Below are positions 1 to 26,028 of a DNA stretch of 28,143 nucleotides, piece after piece (within the stretch, counting starts at the first letter, position 1; each line of letters begins with the position of its first letter). Below the pieces are notes generated by a model. The model was not told the origin of the DNA and did not search any database. It saw only the letters and a program-made list of their open reading frames with translations. This stretch comes from a virus: positions 1 through 28,143 of IMG/VR virus record IMGVR_UViG_3300028299_000022; one strand, 5' to 3'. Both the position numbers and the translations under genes were made by a program.

Positions 1-402
1 AACTGTTTGATTTAATGCTCCTGCTGTATGAGGACCTGCCCCTGAACCAGCATATACAAGCCCCCCTACCGTCCAAGCAGGTGCAAGAGTGTGAAGATGA
101 ACAATCGTCCCGGGCAACAGAAATACTCCAGAAGCATCTGCATTGATAGTTGCTGCCGCTAAAACACACCCGGGCATGGTGGCAGCAGCGTCCGCATCAG
201 TCAAGGCCGCCTCACCGCTTGCATTGATAAAACATAGCTGGCCGAGGGCTACGTTTTCATGGGCTGTCAAGGTAACTATATTCCCTTCCCATGTATCAGC
301 AGCAGGGGCAGGAGCTGTATCAATGGAATGGCCATTTAGGTCAAGATCCCCACCAAGTTGTGGAGTGGTATCTTTGACGATATTCTCTCCCAATTTAAGC
401 AT
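1..402 (-). CDS. Phage tail fibre/distal structural protein, partial (C-terminus beyond window)
   Basis: An open frame runs from ATG at 402 to the left edge, giving 134 codons without a stop. A strong AGGAGG ribosome site lies 6 nt upstream of the ATG. The N-terminus contains LGGDLDLNGHSI at about residues 16-27, a motif seen often at the start of phage tail-fibre and fibre-shaft domains. It is followed by an Ala/Gly/Thr-rich stretch that looks all-beta. The gene is the last of a row of small distal tail genes and starts 12 nt after the stop of its upstream neighbour, so it is probably co-transcribed. The likely role is a virion fibre or tip accessory protein. The motif supports a structural role, but the exact function is inferred and the C-terminus is not visible. 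Confidence 0.7.
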   Translation of the reverse strand, partial: MLKLGENIVKDTTPQLGGDLDLNGHSIDTAPAPAADTWEGNIVTLTAHENVALGQLCFINASGEAALTDADAAATMPGCVLAAATINADASGVFLLPGTIVHLHTLAPAWTVGGLVYAGSGAGPHTAGALNQTV

Positions 403-2311: not shown

Positions 2312-2740
2312 TTATGTAGGAGTTCCTTTTGACAACTGAAATTTTGGTGTCACCAAAATCTGGTCGCCGTTGTTTACAGGAGTAAATGCCTGAGCAAACT
2401 TCTCCGCCCAAACAAGAACACCATCTGCATCAACAACAAAATAACCGTAGACCGTTCCATTTGTTGTTAGTGGTCCAGTGAAAGCAAACGTCTGTTGGGC
2501 GTAGATGGCATCACTTGGATCATTAGCAGGGGTTACTGTCCAGCTCCCATTACTCAGGGTTTTCGCTGCATAGCCTCCTCCCAATGCCTCAGTGTAGGTG
2601 CCTGCCACATCGGTGTCGGCGGGTGTTACATCCGTAGCGAACAGTTTTAAAGTTAAATCTTTTCCTCCAGCCGCCCAATCATCATTGAAAAAAGCCTTTA
2701 AAGCCACATCCGCTCCAACATCTGCAAGTACAAGAGCCAT
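2312..2740 (-). CDS. Phage distal tail/virion protein (beta-sandwich type)
   Basis: This 142-residue protein starts at ATG 2740, preceded by AGGAGGTAAGGAAA. It opens MALVLADVGADVALKAFF, then runs through alternating hydrophobic and polar strands, with TYTEALGGGYAAKTL in the middle and GYFVVDADGVLVWAEKF near the end. There are no Cys residues and no membrane segment. Small proteins with this look are frequent in the distal tail clusters of siphophages and their prophages, next to fibre genes, but I cannot name a characterised family. It lies between the two paralogous tail proteins with gaps of about 12-20 nt. A structural role in the tail tip or fibre is inferred from sequence style and position. 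Confidence 0.65.
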   Translation of the reverse strand: MALVLADVGADVALKAFFNDDWAAGGKDLTLKLFATDVTPADTDVAGTYTEALGGGYAAKTLSNGSWTVTPANDPSDAIYAQQTFAFTGPLTTNGTVYGYFVVDADGVLVWAEKFAQAFTPVNNGDQILVTPKFQLSKGTPT

Positions 2741-10409: not shown

Positions 10410-10759
10410 AAAGTCACCAAAACAAAATCATAATCTGAGAGATACTGAGCACCGTCATATCCTGTATTGCTTTTCTTTGGAGGAGCCTCAAATCTTACTG
10501 TATAAGAAGTTCCTGTTACAGGGTGTGTCCAAGTAAAACTGTCTGTTGCTCCATCTACTGTATCAATAAAAGCATCGAGCAACGCTGTGTCAACAGACCC
10601 CAAATTCATGTACTTGATCTGAAATTTTCTCCTTACTCTGGTATATCGAGAACGGGTCTTCTGATAACCAGATTCAAAACGAGATTTTATCGTATTGTCT
10701 TCCCGTTCTTCTGATAATGGGTATGTTGGTTTTTTCGATAAAGTTGGATACATAGGCAT
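10406..10759 (-). CDS. M: Minor tail protein, lambda M-like
   Basis: This 117-residue protein has its start codon overlapping the tape measure stop by one base (TAATG) and its stop overlapping the L-like start. The sequence opens MPMYPTLSKKPTYPLSEERE and has a basic middle (YQKTRSRYTRVRRKFQIKY). It ends with FTWTHPVTGTSYTVRF and YDFVLVTL, a beta-rich layout typical of the distal tail proteins of the lambda M family. In lambda, M caps the tube side of the tip complex and contacts L and the tape measure protein. The one-base and four-base overlaps imply translational coupling. Family membership rests on length, position and overall pattern rather than on a single diagnostic residue. Confidence 0.8.
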   Translation of the reverse strand: MPMYPTLSKKPTYPLSEEREDNTIKSRFESGYQKTRSRYTRVRRKFQIKYMNLGSVDTALLDAFIDTVDGATDSFTWTHPVTGTSYTVRFEAPPKKSNTGYDGAQYLSDYDFVLVTL

Positions 10760-13700
10760 TACCGTCCTCCTCTCATCAAATGATATGAAGGCCCAAAAGC
10801 CTGGTAATCTTGAATAAAGGCATCAACCACCATCTTGTTAAAACCGGTCATTTTTGGTTGACTTACTTTTGCAGTGAGTGGCTGTCCACTTTGATTATAA
10901 AGATTGAACTCTATAGAAGGGGCGTTCCCTCCTGCGGCCATCTTTTCAAACATACTGCTTTGTTCTCTGGAGAGAACACGCTCATCAGTAAGAACTTTAA
11001 CCATCCGTTCATCTCCCACCAGTCCACCAATATGAAAAGAAGGAATCTTACCCCCCTCATGCGCTGTTAATGTGGGCGTGGAAAAAGCTCCTTTTAACAA
11101 ACCCCAAATACCAGAAGCTGCGGCACCTGAACCCAGCAATGTTGCCGCCGCCAACTGTTGTGCAAGGATTTGGAACATTGCATTTCTAACTGCTTTGGCA
11201 AAGGAGTTAAAATAATCCCAAAGTCCTTTCAAATTTCCTTCCGCAAGATCAATAAAAGCTTCCTTGAATGTATCGGAAAGAGCCTTACAAGTCTCTGAAA
11301 ATAAGCCGTTTAGCTGCTTTCCCCAATCAGTAAACTCTTCAAACATATCCTTTAGAGTTTTATCCCAAACAGCTCCAATACCTTTAGTCCCAAAGAGAGC
11401 AGAAAAATCCAGTGCTTTCTTTAGTTCCAAACCAAGTCCTTTTGTTTTGGTTCCTTCTACAGCTTTGGTAAGATCCGCTTCCAATTGTTCCTTATCAACA
11501 ACTAACTCTCCCATAATAGCCATGCCACGGGGGCTTTTTACTCCTACTTTAACAAGCTCCGCCCGCTTCCTTTCTTCCACTTTCTTAGCATGATCTATGA
11601 GAGTATTGGTTTCATTCTCAAGTTCCTTCTGCAAAAGCTGACTCATTCTATTATAATAAGTAATTGCAGAAATCTCTCTCTCTTTGTACAGAAATTCCGT
11701 TATTTCTCGATCTCTGGCTATTTCCGACTTTCTTAAATCTGATTGAGTGTTGATGAATATTTGTGCAAGCTTTTCCCTTTGCTTAAAGCCCTCAATAGCG
11801 ATCTTTGTTTTTTCCTCATAAACCTTTTTCTCCGTTGCAAGCTCTTGTGTATAAGTCTTATCCCTGGAAACTTTAATGGCATTGTCAATAGCTTCTAACT
11901 CAGATACCATTGTGGCTTTAAGATTGCGTGTCCTTTCATCTGCTCCCTTTCCAGAAACTCCCCCAATCCGTCGCTCAAATTCTTTCTCTATCTTTTCTCT
12001 CTTATCAGTGAGAAAAAAAATCTCCATGTCCCCAGCATCTCGTATTATCTGGAGTCTCTTCGCCTCATACTCAGAAGCAGAAATCAATCCTTTATAATGA
12101 TGAACTTCTAACTCAGCAAGTTGCTCCTTCTCACCACTCTTAATTGCTTCTATTGCGGAATTGTATGTCTTTTTGATTGCACTTACATCAGACAATAGAT
12201 GAGTGTCTTCTTTTGGAATAATTGGAAGACCAGCATCCTTCTTTTCTTTCTCAGCATCATAAATATCTTGTACATTCTTTCTCGCCACTGCGGTTTCATA
12301 CGCAGCCAGGCGTTTGCGTTCATTATAAGCATCCATATCCTTCTTAAACATTTGATCCAATACTATCTGCTGAGTAGCAGAAGTGGCCGTGTACTTACTC
12401 AAGTCAGGTTTTTTTATCTGCTCCTCTGCTTGCAAAGCCTTATTAAACTCCTTTACGGCATTGAACTTATCTTTTGCAGAGGCCATCCTGGCGGAAAATT
12501 CACGATCTCGCTTATCCAGAGCATCATATTCAGCGTTCAATGCTCTAAACAAAAGGATGATTGCAGTAACACCAACTGCTAAAACACCAAAGGCGACATT
12601 CAACTGCATAACACTGGGAGCAAGTTGACCTACTCCTTTTGTCATTATCATGACAAGCCCATGAGCGGAACTAAACACCGCTGCTATTCGAGCCATAAGA
12701 ACAATAAGAGCTGGCAAAGCTAATTTTACAAGATAAGCGGTAATAGCCCCTGCAAGTAATGCCATAGCATCCTTCCATTGAAGAGTCCACCCTACCACAT
12801 TAGTTAAACCAGATATAGGAAAAAGAATCGCTGTGCCAAAAGAGGTAATTGCAGTAGTCAAAGTAGACACCACATCTTTCAACAAAGCGAAAGCATTATA
12901 AGTGAAAGTACCTGCTCTGCCAAGCCCTTGAATCTTCTCATCAAAAGCATGAGTGGAATCCAAAGCAAATAACATTCCACTTGACATATCCACCAATACC
13001 GATGTCAAATTTCTCAAAGAGCCTTCACTGAGTCCAGAGACAGCCGCACTTAAAGCGTCAAGAATATTTAGAAAGATTTTCCATTGTGCACCACTGGTTA
13101 AAGTCATTTCACTTGCGGCCAAATCCAATGATCCGCCCACTGTTTTTAATCCTTCAGTCAGTTTTATATACTTTTCATATTGTGTTAAGAAGGCGACAAA
13201 AGCCCTCCCTTGCTCCTTTCCCATCATTCCACCAAAGAATGACATTATTCCAACAGGCACAGCACCTCCTCCCGCTTTTGTCTTGCTAAGAAGCTGAGAC
13301 ACAATAGAATCAAATTGAGAGGCCAATGTCTTGGTCGCATCCATTTCAATGTTCAATTTCTTTAACTCTTGACGAGCCTTTGGTTGCTGAAGAGCGGTCA
13401 TAAAACTTGCCGTCAAACGACCAGCCGAAGAGGCCTTCTGACCTGTATCTGTAACAGCAACGGCAATAGCTATCATTTGCTGTAGGGTAAAATCTGACAG
13501 CTTAGAAACAACGCCCATGTACTGGATAACCTTTGTAAATTCTTCCGGTCTTATGATACCAACTGCCTGACCTCGGAGTAGGGTTTCCACAATAGTCTTG
13601 AACTTCTCCGCCTCCGTTCCCGCCATCTGTAGCTGATCTTTAAAATTGTTAAACGCTGCGGTAACAGCCACAGCAAACTGCTTCATGTCAATTTCACCAA

Positions 13701-14352
13701 AAGCAGTCTTCAGATTGGCGAGCATGGGAAGCATATCAGCAACGGTTTGCTCCGCAATACCAGCACCAACAAAAGCCTGTCCTATCTCACTTAAATCCTT
13801 CATAACAACAGGTTTCTCAATAGCGGCTACTCTCATTGCAGCAACAGCCGATCTTGTTCCCATCCTTGCTTCTGGAGAGATTTTGCCTGAAGTGGCACTA
13901 AAACGTATCATCTCAGCAGCGGCTTGATCTAAAGCAGCTATGTATTTAAACGCACCTGTTGTAGCTGCTGCAAAGCCTGCCGCAATGGTGTCCAAAACAA
14001 GACGTGTGCTGTACCATCTCATCTGTATCTGGATGAGGTATTCCATGCCTTCGTACAAAGACTTTATGGAATAACTCATGTTCTTTAAGGGATTGGTGGA
14101 ACTGGTGGCCGCACTACCCACACTCTTCATACTCGTTGACAGTTTACTTACAGAACTTGAAAGGGTGTCGACAGAAGTGCGAACCTTTTCCATCTCAGAA
14201 TTCATCCGAGACATTACTTGAGGAACCTTATTAAAAGAAGTTTGAAGCTCAGCCCCTAACTTATTGACTGCTTCAGAAACAGCGGTGAACCCTTTTGCTT
14301 GGGCCTCAATCAACAGAGATGTTTTAATCGGTCCTGATCCTGGTCCTCCCAT
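10759..14352 (-). CDS. H: Tape measure protein
   Basis: The protein has 1197 residues, with ATG at 14352 after GGAGAGGTGTAAT. An N-terminal coiled coil (residues 15-80, MNSEMEKVRTSVDTLSSSVS) leads into a TP901-type tape measure core at about residues 150-390 (AVAAMRVAAIEKPVVMKDLS, then GIIRPEEFTKVIQYMGVVSK, then SSAGRLTASFMTALQQPKAR). Two strongly hydrophobic segments lie at about residues 531-557 and 581-602 and may insert in the host inner membrane during DNA entry. Residues 610-1000 are a long charged helical region. The C-terminus is Gly-rich (HEGGKIPSFHIGGLVGDERM) and ends in a small domain. By the usual rule of about 0.15 nm per residue, the tail would be near 180 nm, so a siphovirus-type tail is inferred. 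It follows the chaperone genes, as expected. Confidence 0.95.
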   Translation of the reverse strand: MGGPGSGPIKTSLLIEAQAKGFTAVSEAVNKLGAELQTSFNKVPQVMSRMNSEMEKVRTSVDTLSSSVSKLSTSMKSVGSAATSSTNPLKNMSYSIKSLYEGMEYLIQIQMRWYSTRLVLDTIAAGFAAATTGAFKYIAALDQAAAEMIRFSATSGKISPEARMGTRSAVAAMRVAAIEKPVVMKDLSEIGQAFVGAGIAEQTVADMLPMLANLKTAFGEIDMKQFAVAVTAAFNNFKDQLQMAGTEAEKFKTIVETLLRGQAVGIIRPEEFTKVIQYMGVVSKLSDFTLQQMIAIAVAVTDTGQKASSAGRLTASFMTALQQPKARQELKKLNIEMDATKTLASQFDSIVSQLLSKTKAGGGAVPVGIMSFFGGMMGKEQGRAFVAFLTQYEKYIKLTEGLKTVGGSLDLAASEMTLTSGAQWKIFLNILDALSAAVSGLSEGSLRNLTSVLVDMSSGMLFALDSTHAFDEKIQGLGRAGTFTYNAFALLKDVVSTLTTAITSFGTAILFPISGLTNVVGWTLQWKDAMALLAGAITAYLVKLALPALIVLMARIAAVFSSAHGLVMIMTKGVGQLAPSVMQLNVAFGVLAVGVTAIILLFRALNAEYDALDKRDREFSARMASAKDKFNAVKEFNKALQAEEQIKKPDLSKYTATSATQQIVLDQMFKKDMDAYNERKRLAAYETAVARKNVQDIYDAEKEKKDAGLPIIPKEDTHLLSDVSAIKKTYNSAIEAIKSGEKEQLAELEVHHYKGLISASEYEAKRLQIIRDAGDMEIFFLTDKREKIEKEFERRIGGVSGKGADERTRNLKATMVSELEAIDNAIKVSRDKTYTQELATEKKVYEEKTKIAIEGFKQREKLAQIFINTQSDLRKSEIARDREITEFLYKEREISAITYYNRMSQLLQKELENETNTLIDHAKKVEERKRAELVKVGVKSPRGMAIMGELVVDKEQLEADLTKAVEGTKTKGLGLELKKALDFSALFGTKGIGAVWDKTLKDMFEEFTDWGKQLNGLFSETCKALSDTFKEAFIDLAEGNLKGLWDYFNSFAKAVRNAMFQILAQQLAAATLLGSGAAASGIWGLLKGAFSTPTLTAHEGGKIPSFHIGGLVGDERMVKVLTDERVLSREQSSMFEKMAAGGNAPSIEFNLYNQSGQPLTAKVSQPKMTGFNKMVVDAFIQDYQAFGPSYHLMRGGR

Positions 14353-14364
14353 ATTACACCTCTC

Positions 14365-14721
14365 CTAATTTTCTTTCCTATCTACTTTTATCTGGCTTTT
14401 ATCACACTTAGAGCAATCTAAATCGGGCTTTGCTTTCTTACAGGCTTTGCAATAATCACTTTCCAGCCTGACACGATCCTTCTCTTTAGGAACAAGAGCG
14501 GCAATAACCGATTCTCGAAATAATTCTTCTCTCAGACGGTGATCCATGTAGGGGACACTCTCTTTAGGAGTAGCCCCCCACAAAATTAAGTCTCGCTTGG
14601 AGATGTCTCCTCCGCTAAGGAGGAGGACAACTTCGCTAATGAACTGATCTGTCCTGGCACTTCGATCTTCCCGATCAGCTTCTCTATTTTTTCGAGATAT
14701 ATAGCTGTCGGGTTGCATTCG
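14365..14721 (-). CDS. Tail assembly chaperone T frame, made as G-T by -1 frameshift
   Basis: This frame lies -1 relative to the G-like gene and encodes about 118 residues after the slip (RMQPDSYISRKNREADRED and on). It has an ATG at 14718 but no ribosome site, and its frame is closed by TGA only two codons upstream of the slippery T TTT TTC. It is therefore expected to be made only as a G-T fusion of about 214 residues. The C-terminus carries CKAC and CSKC pairs (DYCKACKKAKPDLDCSKCDK), a probable zinc-binding site. In lambda, the T part of G-T binds tail tube subunits and delivers them to the tape measure complex. The gene lies between tail tube and tape measure, where this chaperone is normally found. 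Confidence 0.85.
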   Translation of the reverse strand, partial: RMQPDSYISRKNREADREDRSARTDQFISEVVLLLSGGDISKRDLILWGATPKESVPYMDHRLREELFRESVIAALVPKEKDRVRLESDYCKACKKAKPDLDCSKCDKSQIKVDRKEN

Positions 14722-15008
14722 AAAAAATCTTCAATCACCATAACCATCATTTTAACAGGTATGTGAAATCCCAAAAACTCCGAAAGGGAAGTCAAATCCT
14801 TATCCTTTACAGACCCCCCTTTCTCAGTTAAAACAACGGCCAGAGCATCAGGCATTTTGTCACCAATCAATGAAATTATATCCATTGGAGACACGGCTTC
14901 AGTTAGATCAACACCTTTTAAGACAGCCAGTAATTGCCTCACTTGCCCCCATACAAGAGGCTTCTGAACAAATTCCCGTCCTTCTATGGTATAGCTTGTC
15001 TCTTCCAT
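14586..15008 (-). CDS. G: Tail assembly chaperone, lambda G-like
   Basis: The protein has 140 residues, with ATG at 15008 after AAAGGAGTGTTTTAAT. It is mostly helical, opening MEETSYTIEGREFVQKPLVW and continuing with GVDLTEAVSPMDIISLIGDK. There is no Cys-rich part and no membrane segment. G coats the tape measure protein during tail assembly and is absent from mature virions. The reading frame overlaps the T frame by 136 nt, and a canonical slip site sits at codons 95-96. G and G-T thus share only the first 96 residues, whereas in lambda the slip is close to the end of G. The unslipped tail (residues 97-140) is Ser/Lys/Glu-rich. Placement between tail tube and tape measure strongly supports the role. 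Confidence 0.85.
   Translation of the reverse strand: MEETSYTIEGREFVQKPLVWGQVRQLLAVLKGVDLTEAVSPMDIISLIGDKMPDALAVVLTEKGGSVKDKDLTSLSEFLGFHIPVKMMVMVIEDFFECNPTAIYLEKIEKLIGKIEVPGQISSLAKLSSSLAEETSPSET
14670..14727 (-). promoter_or_regulatory. Programmed -1 frameshift signal for G-T
   Basis: The heptamer TTTTTTC (14727-14721) is in phase X XXY YYZ with the G frame (GA-T TTT TTC), so both tRNAs can re-pair after slipping to TTT TTT. An 8-nt spacer (14720-14713) follows. Then comes a bulged hairpin: CCCGA (14712-14708) with TCGGG (14674-14670), CAGCT (14707-14703) with AGCTG (14680-14676), and TCTC (14697-14694) with GAGA (14684-14681), around a 9-nt loop. One A bulge and a 5-nt ATATA bulge interrupt it. 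The -1 frame is blocked by TGA just upstream, so this is effectively the only workable site. Confidence 0.85.
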
Positions 15009-15037
15009 ATTAAAACACTCCTTTCAAAATCCCTATT

Positions 15038-16009
15038 TTATTCATACGAAGTTGTTGGGCTCAGCAAGACCATTCTTGCTGCTGTCGCCGCGGCCGCATC
15101 GCTGTAGTAAGCCTCAAACGGCAGCTCTACCAACACCCCTGCAGGACCGGTTACTACTGGCGCCTGTGGTTTCAATATAACCTCATCAAAAGAGAAGGTC
15201 ATCTTTTCATTCCCGGATGAACCGTCCCCATTGCCTTTGGTGAAACAAATTGTAAGAGCAATTTCTGTGTTAGCAATGGCAAGATCATACAATGTGGTGC
15301 TGTCAAAAATAGCCCTCAGTGTCCCTGTTACTTTCGCAGATCCGGCTGGCAATGAATCCCTCTCCCCAGTACCATCAATGACATAGTTACTGCCATCAAG
15401 ATTATTTTCAAGAGTAAACTCAAACTCAGTCACTCCCGCCAAGGCTGATCCGTCCTTGGTAAGAGCCGCCTCAAAGGCATCAAATGGAGTGAAACCAAGA
15501 TCAGTGGGAGTAGAGTCCATTGTATTTACTGCTTCCGTTTCCTTTGCTCCCATAATATTCACAGAACACTCAATCATGCCTTCTGACTTACAAGACATGG
15601 TAAAGCTGTTCACCCGGCAGCCGTTGTACTGAAAATATTTTGGTGAGGCGAGATCAAGGAACTGCTTTTCAATAACCAATCCGTTAGGAAGGGAGCCGAC
15701 TTTGAATGTGTGAGTTGACATTTCACCTGTTGCTGCATACCCATAATGACCATAGATATGCTGAAACAGCCTTCCATGCTGAGGAGACAGTTCAAAGGGA
15801 ATATCCCCAGAAATCTCTGTATTGCCTCTTACAGGCTGTTGTGGATTTCTATCAGACCGAATTGTGTTTGAAGAGATCAGGTTCCTATTCAACCGCAAAC
15901 TCTCGCTCACAAATGGAAGATACATGGCATCCACTACGGCCGGATTTGTTTTGAAAGTGTCCTCAGTGTCGTAAATAAGTTTTACATTACTTCCCTGTTG
16001 CTGTGCCAT
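15038..16009 (-). CDS. Major tail tube protein
   Basis: The protein has 323 residues, with ATG at 16009 behind AAGGAGGTAAGTAAA. It opens MAQQQGSNVKLIYDTEDTF, then contains LPFVSESLRLNRNLISSN, ISGDIPFELSPQHGRLFQHI and YFQYNGCRVNSFTMSCKSEG. This order (an N-terminal arm, a 'variance/expected value' strand set, then a 'G-x-R-V-N-S-F' core strand) is what I know from the family of large siphophage tail tube proteins found in many prophages. The C-terminal third is beta-rich with an Ala-rich end (YYSDAAAATAARM). The protein should polymerise into the tube through which DNA passes. It is followed directly by the chaperone genes and tape measure, as expected for a tube gene. Confidence 0.88.
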   Translation of the reverse strand: MAQQQGSNVKLIYDTEDTFKTNPAVVDAMYLPFVSESLRLNRNLISSNTIRSDRNPQQPVRGNTEISGDIPFELSPQHGRLFQHIYGHYGYAATGEMSTHTFKVGSLPNGLVIEKQFLDLASPKYFQYNGCRVNSFTMSCKSEGMIECSVNIMGAKETEAVNTMDSTPTDLGFTPFDAFEAALTKDGSALAGVTEFEFTLENNLDGSNYVIDGTGERDSLPAGSAKVTGTLRAIFDSTTLYDLAIANTEIALTICFTKGNGDGSSGNEKMTFSFDEVILKPQAPVVTGPAGVLVELPFEAYYSDAAAATAARMVLLSPTTSYE

Positions 16010-22114: not shown

Positions 22115-22348
22115 TTATTTAATCTTTTTAAAACCTAAGCACTTGCCATCAGCGTCAAGGTGAACATCCATACAACCACATTGATAAACCCCAGGCATCG
22201 GGCTTACATTGAATGCACACTCGCCATTGTCGCACGTCAATCCGACCTTCCTTAACAAGCACCCGTTTTCCGTCCATTTTTTACATTCCTTAGCTTCACA
22301 GAAGTATCTTCCTTCAGCCTTCTTCCAAGTAACTTTTGATTTACTCAT
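22115..22348 (-). CDS. Small eight-cysteine protein
   Basis: The protein has 77 residues, with its ATG overlapping the portal stop by 4 nt (ATGA) and AAGGAG just upstream inside the portal gene. There are eight cysteines, at 17, 22, 30, 39, 44, 57, 59 and 70, spaced as CEAKEC, C-x8-C, C-x4-C, C-G-C and C. There is no signal peptide, so zinc binding in the cytoplasm is more likely than disulphide bonds. I do not recognise the family. It sits between portal-methyltransferase and prohead protease and is translationally coupled to the portal. It could be a small zinc-binding assembly factor or a partner of the methyltransferase domain. No function can be asserted. Confidence 0.7.
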   Translation of the reverse strand: MSKSKVTWKKAEGRYFCEAKECKKWTENGCLLRKVGLTCDNGECAFNVSPMPGVYQCGCMDVHLDADGKCLGFKKIK

Positions 22349-22941
22349 ATCACTAACTCCTTTTGCAATAGATAAACGACTACACTATGAATGTGAGTGC
22401 CATTTTCATCCTTATCCTTAGTTTCAAAGCGCCACTTATCTCGCACTTCTAAAGAATTCTTCTTATACAACTCCTCAATTTCACTGATTTTGAAATTGAT
22501 CTCCGTTCTGTCCTCCTCCCCACCAGGAGTATAATATGTCGTTTTGATGTAAAGGTAAAGCAGAGACATTCCTTTATTCTTTAATACCCTGCTCACCTCT
22601 TTAATACTTGCATCCATTTTAGTGGAATGAAGAACGGACAAAGAATAAACGAGATCAAAAGTATTTCTTCCAAAGCGTAAAGCTTCCGCATCCCCAACTT
22701 CAAAGGAAACATTCTTCAGTTTGTTATTCCCTTTAGCAATTTCCACTGCTTCAGGCGACAAATCAATTCCAATGACATTATAACCCTGTTCCCCAAAGAA
22801 AATAGAGTCCCGACCATTACCACATCCTATATCAAGAACATTGGAGATGGTGGTATTCATCATTTCTGCTTTCACTGCCGCTTTTGCAAGAGGGGAAGGA
22901 TTCAAACTTGTTGCCCAATGAGGGTCATTCTTCCAAGCCTC
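22345..22941 (-). other. Class I SAM-dependent methyltransferase domain (C-terminus of portal)
   Basis: This is a domain of the portal protein, not a separate gene: no start codon with a ribosome site separates it. The motif I loop is D-I-G-C-G-N-G, followed by the acidic ribose-binding position in VIGIDLS, the adenine-contact GDAEAL and the motif IV-like FDLVYSLSVLH. It ends in a long beta hairpin (HIHSVVVYLLQKE). The absence of an NPPY/DPPY motif argues against a standard adenine or cytosine-N4 DNA methyltransferase, and the absence of a PC motif argues against a cytosine-C5 enzyme. The substrate is unknown. Confidence 0.85.
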
Positions 22942-25900
22942 AATCCAATCGTCTCTCGACATATCCTGTTTCGTAATAGCGAGAGCAGTGTTAATCTCTT
23001 TCCTTGCTCTTTCCATTTCAATGTTCCTGCCAAAATAAAAAGCTGTGTCAACTTCGTTCTCTGCTACAGTATAACTTTTCTGCGTCAAGTAATTATATAT
23101 CTCCCGTACCTTCTCAGCAAAAACCTCTTTATCATTACCATTTTTACTCTTAAATTGCTCAAAAGCATCTATTAAATTGCCTATTAGGGCTTTAAAATTG
23201 CTTACTACAAACGAGGTTTTTGCATCAATAAAACGGGCAATTTCTGCGTCGTTGCCATTTGAAGGCTGTTCTGAGCTTGCGCCTATCTCATTCCAAACAG
23301 AATATTGTCCTCTGTAGACAGCAGTGAAGAAAACTTCCTTTAATTCTCGCTGAAGTTTACCATAACACTTCTCAGATCGATCAATATCCCTATCTTCATA
23401 TACTGCCTCAAGAGCATCCTTTCTCTGATTAAAAAGCAATGTCTTAATCTTTGCTTTAAACTCCTTTTCGATTGGTTGTTTATATATTTGATAAGGATTG
23501 TTTTCGATCATTGGGGTTTTTACCATCTCAATTACTTTCTTTGATTCTTCTTTCGGAGCTTCTGGTTTGTCCTTCCCTGGAGCTTGGTTCTGTGCTCCAC
23601 CATGAGCCATAATATAAGCATAAGAAGAATAACCTCCAGGAATGAAGGCGTCATTGCCCCATTTTACGTCCTGCATACCAAGCTGAAGTCTTTTGTTTAT
23701 CATATTGATTGGCCAACCCATACTCCACATAAGTTTGGCAGTAACCACCTTATCCTTATAATTCTCCTGCAATGCTCCGACAGTGGCAAGATCAAACTCA
23801 CCCCAAATTCTCCCCTTGCCTCTGCGGACACCTATCCTGGAGAAGAACTTCGCCCAAAGCACTTCTTCAAAATAAGTAACCTTCGGCATCAAGCACTCTT
23901 CCCAAAACGCCTTGTGTGCTGCCTTTGATCCTTCATAGGACTTCACGTCCTTAAAAAGCCCCAATACGACTTCGTTCACACTGTAGGCGGCAAAGATTTC
24001 CTCACGGGACATCTTCTTGCCATCGATAAATTCCATGTCCCGCTGACCAAGCCTGCTTTCTGTGATCTTTGCTCCACCTTCTGCAATAACAATCCTATGC
24101 GCCTTCTTTGATCCTTTATGCCTATCTTCAAACTGCTTCAACATCCTATCATAACTATCATCATTCAACTCTTCCGGTACAGTGATATTCAAAGATGTGA
24201 CCGCCCCATTCTCGAAGAATACCTTATTATACATCGATGCATGATAATCTGACTCTACGCTTAACTTGGATGCTTCGAGTGGGGATAATCCTCGTAAATC
24301 ATTGTATGGATTAAACATTTTGAAATGGATGATTTGGCTCAGAGGGAATATTACTTCTATTTTCCCCGAGTATTTCCAACCCAACAACCAATTTGTTTTT
24401 ATATCTATCACAGGCTCAAAGCGGGAAGGTGGAAATGTCCATATCTCTTTAGGTATCTGGGAAACATCGTCTCGTCCTTCAAGAATCCAAAAGGCTTCAC
24501 CAGCCATTTCATAGAAACCGAAAGTGGCCTCAATCAACTTACTCAAGGTCATCAGAGGATTTGGATTTTGAAAAAGTTCGTAAATTGGTCCTTCTTCAAC
24601 TCTCTTTGGCTCAATATCGTCTCCAGCGTCTTTGCGAATGATAAAAGGAACTCTTGCTATGTTTGACATGATGGCATTGATGCAATTATGAGTGGCAACA
24701 CCAAATGCCAAATAAGAATGCTCCTTCCTCACCTCCAAATTAAAAACAGGTAGGTTGTTGACCTTCTCATATCCAATTTTATTAACTGGAAACTTTGCAT
24801 ATCCTTTTTCTATAGCACAAATACTTTTACCAGCATTCCACGAACCCTTCTCCTTCTTCCAAAGCATGTTTTTAAAAATCAAATTTGCCCTTCGTTTATA
24901 ACCCCCACCAATTCTTAATCGGAAACTATCACGACAATCACACATTTGGTTAATTACCCAACGTCTACAACCTTCTTTTTTAAAAACATAAGGAACAATC
25001 CCTTGTCGCAACAGCAAAAATCTTAATCCTTCAACAAGAGAAGGGGAAATTGTATCAAGATTAAAATCACCATTAGGACTTTCACAACCATCCCCCCTCC
25101 AAAACCCCCTCAAGAGGAACATTGTTTTTTCAATTGGGAGTTTAGCAACCCAATCAGGTATCTTCTTATAAGATGCCCCGGTTCCAAACAAAAGGAAAAA
25201 GTCACTGGCTATTCTTGAATTAAAAAGAACGGAAACCCTTCCCTCAGAAGGTGCTTCCAAAGAATGACTAATACCAAAACACTTTTGCATCAAGGATTTA
25301 GTCTCATCAACAAAGAAACGCTCCTCAATAGAAAAGGTAAATTGCACTGTGCTGGGAAAAACTCGACCAGGACCACACTTCTTAACTCGTACATTTCCTT
25401 CGGCCAAATAATACCCTATCAACAATAATAGATCATTATTAACAAGGACCTCCTGTTCATGTTTTTTATATTTATCCTTCCTTCCTTTATTCTCAACTTT
25501 GACAACCCATTTCTCCTTGTCCTCTATAATATCAATAACAGGTGTTAGTAAATAATCACCAATCTGAATGTCCTTAGTCTCTACCCATTGCCTGCCTCCG
25601 TCCCGCTCCACATAAAATGGATGCTCTGAAGTAGCTTGAATAGGAGGAAGGCCATTGCATTTCAAACTAAACAATTTACCAGTATAATCTAAAATTTTTA
25701 CCTCGATCACTTCATCCTGCTTACCAAGATGATTGTAAACAACATCTCCAACTTCCATATCTTCAATGTTACAAACACCATTATCAGTTAATATCGGTGT
25801 GCCTGCCGGAAAGCAAGCATACACCCAAACAGACTGTTTGTAAGGCTGCTGCACTACAGCAGAATAAGGACCAAGCAGTTCTCTCAAGGAGCGAAAAATA

Positions 25901-26028
25901 CGGTGATCATCAATGAGAGGACCAACAACACCCTTCATAGCATGTCTCTGCTGACGAGAATATTCCCACGACAACAGATTGTAACCAACTTTACCAACCA
26001 ACTTCTCAAACATGCTCTCTCCTCTCAT
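22345..26028 (-). CDS. Portal protein with LAGLIDADG intein, Mu gpF-like segment and C-terminal methyltransferase domain
   Basis: This 1227-residue precursor should give an 850-residue protein after splicing. Residues 1-71 and 449 to about 800 form the portal: WVYAC interrupted before the conserved CINAIMSNIARVPF, then IIHFKMFNPYNDLRGLSPLE, and FFENGAVTSLNITVPEELND, and EIFAAYSVNEVVLGLF. The intein spans residues 72-448. About 860-1030 is helical with SYTVAENEVDTAFYFGRNIE, resembling the start of a Mu gpF-type minor head domain, whose later W/D/R/H part is not seen. Residues 1030-1227 are a class I SAM methyltransferase: VLDIGCGNGRDSIFF (motif I near 1064), VIGIDLS, GDAEALRF, FDLVYSLSVLH. No NPPY-type DNA-MTase motif is visible, and it looks closer to TehB/UbiE-like enzymes. 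An ATG 5 codons downstream is an alternative start. The portal call is firm. Confidence 0.92.
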   Translation of the reverse strand: MRGESMFEKLVGKVGYNLLSWEYSRQQRHAMKGVVGPLIDDHRIFRSLRELLGPYSAVVQQPYKQSVWVYACFPAGTPILTDNGVCNIEDMEVGDVVYNHLGKQDEVIEVKILDYTGKLFSLKCNGLPPIQATSEHPFYVERDGGRQWVETKDIQIGDYLLTPVIDIIEDKEKWVVKVENKGRKDKYKKHEQEVLVNNDLLLLIGYYLAEGNVRVKKCGPGRVFPSTVQFTFSIEERFFVDETKSLMQKCFGISHSLEAPSEGRVSVLFNSRIASDFFLLFGTGASYKKIPDWVAKLPIEKTMFLLRGFWRGDGCESPNGDFNLDTISPSLVEGLRFLLLRQGIVPYVFKKEGCRRWVINQMCDCRDSFRLRIGGGYKRRANLIFKNMLWKKEKGSWNAGKSICAIEKGYAKFPVNKIGYEKVNNLPVFNLEVRKEHSYLAFGVATHNCINAIMSNIARVPFIIRKDAGDDIEPKRVEEGPIYELFQNPNPLMTLSKLIEATFGFYEMAGEAFWILEGRDDVSQIPKEIWTFPPSRFEPVIDIKTNWLLGWKYSGKIEVIFPLSQIIHFKMFNPYNDLRGLSPLEASKLSVESDYHASMYNKVFFENGAVTSLNITVPEELNDDSYDRMLKQFEDRHKGSKKAHRIVIAEGGAKITESRLGQRDMEFIDGKKMSREEIFAAYSVNEVVLGLFKDVKSYEGSKAAHKAFWEECLMPKVTYFEEVLWAKFFSRIGVRRGKGRIWGEFDLATVGALQENYKDKVVTAKLMWSMGWPINMINKRLQLGMQDVKWGNDAFIPGGYSSYAYIMAHGGAQNQAPGKDKPEAPKEESKKVIEMVKTPMIENNPYQIYKQPIEKEFKAKIKTLLFNQRKDALEAVYEDRDIDRSEKCYGKLQRELKEVFFTAVYRGQYSVWNEIGASSEQPSNGNDAEIARFIDAKTSFVVSNFKALIGNLIDAFEQFKSKNGNDKEVFAEKVREIYNYLTQKSYTVAENEVDTAFYFGRNIEMERARKEINTALAITKQDMSRDDWIEAWKNDPHWATSLNPSPLAKAAVKAEMMNTTISNVLDIGCGNGRDSIFFGEQGYNVIGIDLSPEAVEIAKGNNKLKNVSFEVGDAEALRFGRNTFDLVYSLSVLHSTKMDASIKEVSRVLKNKGMSLLYLYIKTTYYTPGGEEDRTEINFKISEIEELYKKNSLEVRDKWRFETKDKDENGTHIHSVVVYLLQKELVI
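24685..25815 (-). mobile_element. Intein with LAGLIDADG homing endonuclease in the portal gene
   Basis: The 377-residue intein runs from Cys72 to Asn448 of the portal precursor. Block A starts CFPAGTPILTDNG; block B is ATSEHPF near residues 131-137; two LAGLIDADG-type motifs lie at about 200-210 (LIGYYLAEGN) and 302-315 (FLLRGFWRGDGC), each with its acidic residue intact; block F/G ends HSYLAFGVATHN followed by extein Cys449. All splice residues (Cys1, His-Asn, Cys+1) are present. The insertion cuts the conserved portal motif YA|CINAI, so unspliced product should be inactive. Intact endonuclease acids suggest current or recent mobility. Confidence 0.95.

Follow-up and report, generated by a model that had tools for sequence, protein, structure and literature searches.

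How does a phage reach the second of two tail chaperone frames when that frame lies across the end of the first gene and lacks a conserved start of its own? The question is raised by a 28,143-base virus record (IMGVR_UViG_3300028299_000022, positions 1 to 28,143), referred to below as the window. Its minus strand carries, in this order, genes for terminase, portal, prohead protease, capsid, head-tail connectors, tail tube, G, T, tape measure and lambda-like tail-tip proteins. Judged by this gene order, the layout is the one seen in viruses whose tails are long and non-contractile, and the source is taken to be an uncultivated long-tailed virus of bacteria. A G protein identical over 100% of its residues is encoded in a second record of 62.6 kb. 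The answer proposed here, in which we have high confidence, is a programmed -1 ribosomal frameshift that would let a single start codon give rise to two tail assembly chaperones. What the analysis itself provides is the signal, its conservation, the selection acting on the frames and the synteny, while slippage as such, how often it occurs and what the two proteins do are what we infer.

The G–T locus and its slip site

G (14586–15008, minus strand; 140 aa, taken as the 0 frame) is read as a tail assembly chaperone from its open reading frame, its relatives and its predicted fold, and is preceded by an AAAGGAG at 15018–15024 (minus strand). Upstream of it, the gene at 15038–16009 (minus strand) encodes a tail tube protein (Pfam Phage_tube_2, E 2.3e-55), and after T the gene at 10759–14352 (minus strand) encodes a tape measure protein (PHROG tape measure, E 8.7e-18; also Pfam PhageMin_Tail), so that G and T are flanked by tube and tape measure matches, as expected of a lambda-type pair. 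The same neighbourhood recurs in the five relatives that were scanned, with the tube upstream in all five and a tape-measure match downstream in four.

A slippery heptamer, T TTT TTC, occupies 14721–14727 (minus strand) in the phase X_XXY_YYZ, with TTT as codon 95 and TTC as codon 96 of G. It is followed by an 8-nt spacer, GAATGCAA (14713–14720, minus strand), and by a putative stimulatory hairpin at 14670–14712 (minus strand). From the slip the -1 frame is open to a stop at 14365–14367 (minus strand), which would yield a 214-aa G-T fusion. A sequence-only reading of this DNA had claimed a complete -1 signal here, and in-phase heptamer, 8-nt spacer and bulged hairpin of 5+5+4 bp were all found in place. 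Its further claim, that a TGA in the -1 frame just upstream leaves a single workable slip point, holds as well: the TGA lies two codons upstream of the slip (14731–14733, minus strand), and G has just one further in-phase X XXY YYZ heptamer, TTTGGGA at codon 78, which falls upstream of that stop. Likewise borne out by the sequence are a slip at codon 96 of 140, with G and G-T unlike over the last 44 residues of G, and the junction peptides predicted from it, DFFRMQPD if slipped and DFFECNP if not, which match the translated frames.

By itself, such a heptamer is weak evidence since it also occurs by chance in the window, where T TTT TTN was found in phase three times among the 8,339 codons of its genes; it is conservation that removes chance from the argument. 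Further in-phase copies stand at codon 16 of a 142-aa open reading frame (TTTTTTC; 2312–2740, minus strand) and at codon 778 of the tape measure gene (TTTTTTT).

Conservation of the slip site and the route to T

Relatives were collected in two ways, both with back-translated, codon-neutral patterns, so that codon choice was not selected by the search. A profile search keyed on G returned 59 viral and 7 bacterial-genome loci, most of them 26–49% identical; 64 loci including the window (60 distinct) reach the slip site, and in every one TTTTTTN stands in phase at the same codon and the -1 frame passes the G stop. The second search was keyed on T, through motifs downstream of the slip and a tight T alignment, and bears directly on the finding that would have told against the frameshift, namely relatives that keep the T frame and lack the signal: the heptamer was present in 69 of 69 loci (62 distinct), within an upstream frame at least 92 codons long. 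When both searches are pooled, 102 of 102 distinct loci keep an in-phase TTTTTTN at the same place, its last base being C in 69, T in 23 and G in 10. No exact probability is attached to this conservation because the 102 relatives are phylogenetically non-independent. The six T are invariant even where the second codon specifies Leu instead of Phe (TTTTTTG), and this persistence of the hexamer despite the change of residue argues for selection on the nucleotides. Background codon use is 0.44 for TTT among Phe codons and 0.53 for GAT among Asp codons. A degenerate DNA pattern for DFFECNP gave 23 matches, only four of which were true relatives. Those relatives that come from bacterial genome bins belong to Deltaproteobacteria, Nitrospirota, Syntrophus and Desulfuromonadales. 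In two relatives the -1 frame is also open far upstream of the slip (295 codons in L043 and 124 in L040), and the upstream -1 stop of the window is therefore not a family feature.

That the overlap is a sequencing error or the remains of a decayed gene, with a coincidental heptamer, might be entertained for a single record, homopolymers being error-prone and in-phase heptamers occurring elsewhere in the window. It is, however, next to inconceivable when the same frame relation and the same site recur in 102 distinct relatives from independent assemblies, bacterial genome bins among them.

A more specific objection is that T might be a separate gene overlapping G and translated from its own ATG (14716–14718, minus strand), which is found in the T frame 9 nt past the start of the heptamer and opens an ORF of 117 codons. 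This ATG is not conserved: only 6 of 60 distinct relatives have an ATG at this position, most of the others having CTG or no start there, and in 47 of 64 loci the T frame offers neither ATG nor GTG nor TTG ahead of the T domain. Moreover, no good ribosome-binding site precedes the ATG of the window, and a separate start for T would leave the invariant hexamer unexplained. An independent start is thus rejected for the family as a whole, most relatives having no T start codon, and is very improbable as an account of the window. What is left is a second ORF in the -1 frame that overlaps G and has no conserved start of its own, and since most loci offer no usable start, T is reached by a change of frame.

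Such a change could in principle take place during transcription, if RNA polymerase slipped on the T run and a fraction of the mRNAs carried T in frame. The run is homopolymeric and reaches 8–9 T in a row in a few relatives (L044, L049 and L075), but it has only 6 T in the window and in most relatives, and polymerase slippage usually needs longer tracts than that. Preservation of both the phase and an adjacent stem points to the ribosome rather than the polymerase, and we give transcriptional slippage very little credence as the general explanation. In the three relatives with 8–9 T at the slip site, it could add to ribosomal slippage or replace it.

Ribosomal -1 frameshifting in a tail chaperone gene, as the sequence-only reading had it, is therefore backed by an invariant slip site, by the synteny with tube and tape measure genes, by the absence of T starts from most relatives and by the selection seen on both frames (see below). 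In practical terms, the invariant TTTTTTN ahead of GDI(T/S)KRD offers annotators a means of finding the fused gene, where gene callers would give one chaperone and miss T.

The downstream hairpin

RNA folding reproduced the bulged stem of 5+5+4 bp that had been described at 14712–14670, with bulges of 1 nt and 5 nt and a stability of -18.4 kcal/mol. None of 200 dinucleotide shuffles was as stable (z -4.5; z -2.3 when the hairpin was considered in a 121-nt context). Across the 102 relatives the commonest offset between the heptamer and the first paired base is 8 nt, as in the window (25/102), followed by an offset of 0 (24). The 48 nt past the heptamer are more structured than their dinucleotide shuffles (family mean z -1.57, with 43% of values below -2); in the same loci, the mean z values of seven control regions lay between -0.03 and -0.62. 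The region also exceeds its 0-frame synonymous variants in structure (mean z -1.58), but compared with variants synonymous in the -1 frame the excess of stem is weak (mean z -0.45).

Whether the two arms belong together was addressed by an arm-swap test, in which the 5' arm of one locus is joined to the 3' arm of another and any register is allowed. Among 89 non-redundant loci, own arms pair better than swapped ones (t about -6, compared with -0.4 for a control region). Covariation of the stem in a fixed register did not rise above shuffles and RNAalifold found no consensus structure in an ungapped alignment, because the register of the stem and the length of its loop vary. No match was found in Rfam. 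These results suggest that the stem is probably selected in many lineages. It is absent, though, from several subclades that keep the heptamer, and thus would modulate the site rather than define it.

Could the frameshift then be real and the hairpin dispensable, the heptamer sufficing alone? This is how P2-like phages appear to operate, with slippage on TTTTTTG and no predicted hairpin (PMC3091744), and both the stemless subclades and the missing fixed-register covariation would fit such a view. We nevertheless find it unlikely, given the strong stem of the window, the family-wide excess of structure over control regions and the fit of the arms to their own partners. A frameshift aided by the stem in many lineages is the reading retained here. 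Fifteen relatives (L054–L059, L062, L063, L066, L069, L077, L082, L083, L085 and L087), many of which have a variant T domain (KQRYEW...), include several that keep the heptamer with no clear stem and are natural hairpin-less comparisons. With its long overlap, the family amounts to over 100 natural variants in which slip sites that have a hairpin and slip sites that lack one can be compared for what they need.

Position of the proposed slip and its two products

In the proposed mechanism, most ribosomes would read G to its own stop and give the 140-aa protein. With TTT and TTC (both Phe) in the P and A sites, the ribosome would meet the hairpin 8 nt downstream, and a minority would re-pair one base back (TTT TTT) and carry on in the -1 frame to make the 214-aa G-T fusion. 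In the lambda model, G forms a coat on the tape measure protein and G-T, via T, delivers tube subunits, the ratio that slippage sets between the two being important (PMC5009743; see also the TP901-1 study, PMC4493119). By analogy, the G core may coat the tape measure protein here, the T part may recruit tail-tube subunits and the slip rate would set the G:GT ratio. A large-scale study put frameshifting in two HK97-related chaperone genes at 6–7% (PMC3711429), which is a reasonable expectation for the present site if it behaves as they do.

The slip had also been called unusually early, and this proved true in one sense only. Counted in codons it is early, with 44 codons between slip and G stop in the window (24–82 in the family, median 57). 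The corresponding distance is 7.3 codons in lambda and 8.3 in P2, and does not exceed 16 in HK97 or 11 in N15. It lies outside the last ~20 codons of G, a location that is typical, although not defining, of the compact lambda/P2 arrangement. In D29 no in-phase heptamer was found by which to place the slip and the -1 frame is open for up to 73 codons, so that a longer distance from slip to stop may occur in some known phages. Counted by fold, the slip is not early, since it coincides with the end of the predicted core. The predicted structure of G is confident to about residue 98 and is followed by a less certain helix (100–115) and then by disorder. Among PDB entries it matches the tail assembly chaperone of HK97 best (2ob9, over residues 1–104; weak, Foldseek E 0.42, Z 5.1), YqbN (3klu) being the next match to the core in a second look, and tail assembly chaperones recur among viral structure models matched to G (E 0.001 to 0.1). 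These matches are statistically weak but point to the expected chaperone family.

A codon-position test across the 139 nt read in both frames (14589–14727, minus strand) divides the overlap into zones, the 0 frame being conserved over the first ~12 codons, neither frame in the middle and the T frame from about codon 30 onwards. By the same pattern, 0-frame selection is seen upstream of the slip and T-frame selection continues past the G stop. The end of G, ETSPSET, is T's GDISKRD (14590–14610, minus strand) read in the other frame. Together, the predicted fold and the zones indicate that the slip is predicted to fall at the end of the folded G core, as in known tail chaperones, and that most of the G tail is probably a passenger, a by-product of the conserved segment of T read out of frame. 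The helix just after the slip is not a passenger in these predictions and would be the one real difference between G and GT. GT would keep the G core, but in place of the last G helix and the disordered tail it would have a linker followed by a helical T domain and a Cys cluster.

Selection on the 0-frame helix just after the slip would imply that unslipped G has a C-terminal element that GT must lose. We tentatively raise the possibility, which we rate somewhat below even, of a functional swap in which this G-specific helix (~100–115) is lost in GT, the same nucleotides would serve as helix, hairpin and GT linker, and slippage would choose the end state of the chaperone. The long overlap is in any event a case for studying how one stretch of RNA serves two reading frames plus a structure.

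The T part read after slippage (14365–14727, minus strand, including the stop) comprises 120 residues counted from FF; its open -1 frame is kept in relatives, where the conserved motif takes the form GDI(T/S)KRD-x-ILWG. It is predicted to be a mostly helical domain, and a structure search with T returned nothing meaningful. The zinc-like Cys site said to end T does contain two CxxC pairs (14404–14451, minus strand), but their spacing is x8 and not x9 (CKAC-KKAKPDLD-CSKC). In T, C96, C105 and C108 are at least 90% conserved. Among 59 relatives compared, CxxC-x(n)-CxxC is found in 23 and other arrangements of C-terminal Cys in most of the rest, with no such cluster in L030, L043 and L089. Zinc-ribbon profiles gave weak matches in single members of T, and metal binding by the cluster is plausible.

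Relation to known tail chaperones

The slippage trick itself is well known, but this chaperone family is in neither of the profile libraries searched: none of the 59 G and 58 T members compared had a convincing match in Pfam or PHROG, where the best chaperone profile was phrog_1442, matched by 2 members at E 0.074. Searches of 50,697 phage records with two G members and one T member returned no match, and the G profile shows no sequence similarity to lambda G or P2 E. Comparison of a sequence profile with solved structures yielded weak matches only, FliG at E 0.07 and above, which were taken as chance.

Resemblance to known systems lies at another level. Like lambda G/G-T, the window has the order tube, G, T and tape measure, a -1 slip on X XXY YYZ, a T that would be reached by slippage as a G-T fusion and a G of 140 aa. 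Unlike in lambda, where the slip occurs on GGGAAAG 7 codons before the G stop, it would occur here on TTTTTTC 44 codons before it, and the downstream hairpin and Cys-rich end of T are features of the window that set it apart. P2 E/E+E' shares the heptamer class, TTTTTTG, with some of the relatives found here, together with the place ahead of the tape measure gene, but differs in slipping 8 codons before the E stop and in having relatives with no predicted hairpin (PMC3091744). With HK97 gp13/gp14 the likeness is in the predicted G core, for which 2ob9 is the best fold match (~8% identity, weak statistics), and in the location of the slip, as the -1 frame of HK97 does not open until the last 16 codons, close to where the aligned domain ends; HK97 gp13 has, in contrast, no comparably long tail after it. 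Their gene order, frame relation and conserved slip site place the present genes among the lambda-type G/G-T frameshift chaperones, of which they are best regarded as a new and unannotated family. This defines a tail-chaperone family of uncultivated phages and of prophages in bins of Deltaproteobacteria, Nitrospirota and Desulfuromonadales that Pfam and PHROG searches do not recognize.

Elsewhere in the window, the portal ORF (22345–26028, minus strand; 1,227 aa) has an intein-like insert ahead of the portal domain, with an intein splicing domain and a LAGLIDADG motif between the borders CFPAGTPI and ATHNC (residues ~72–450), and ends in a SAM-methyltransferase-like domain.
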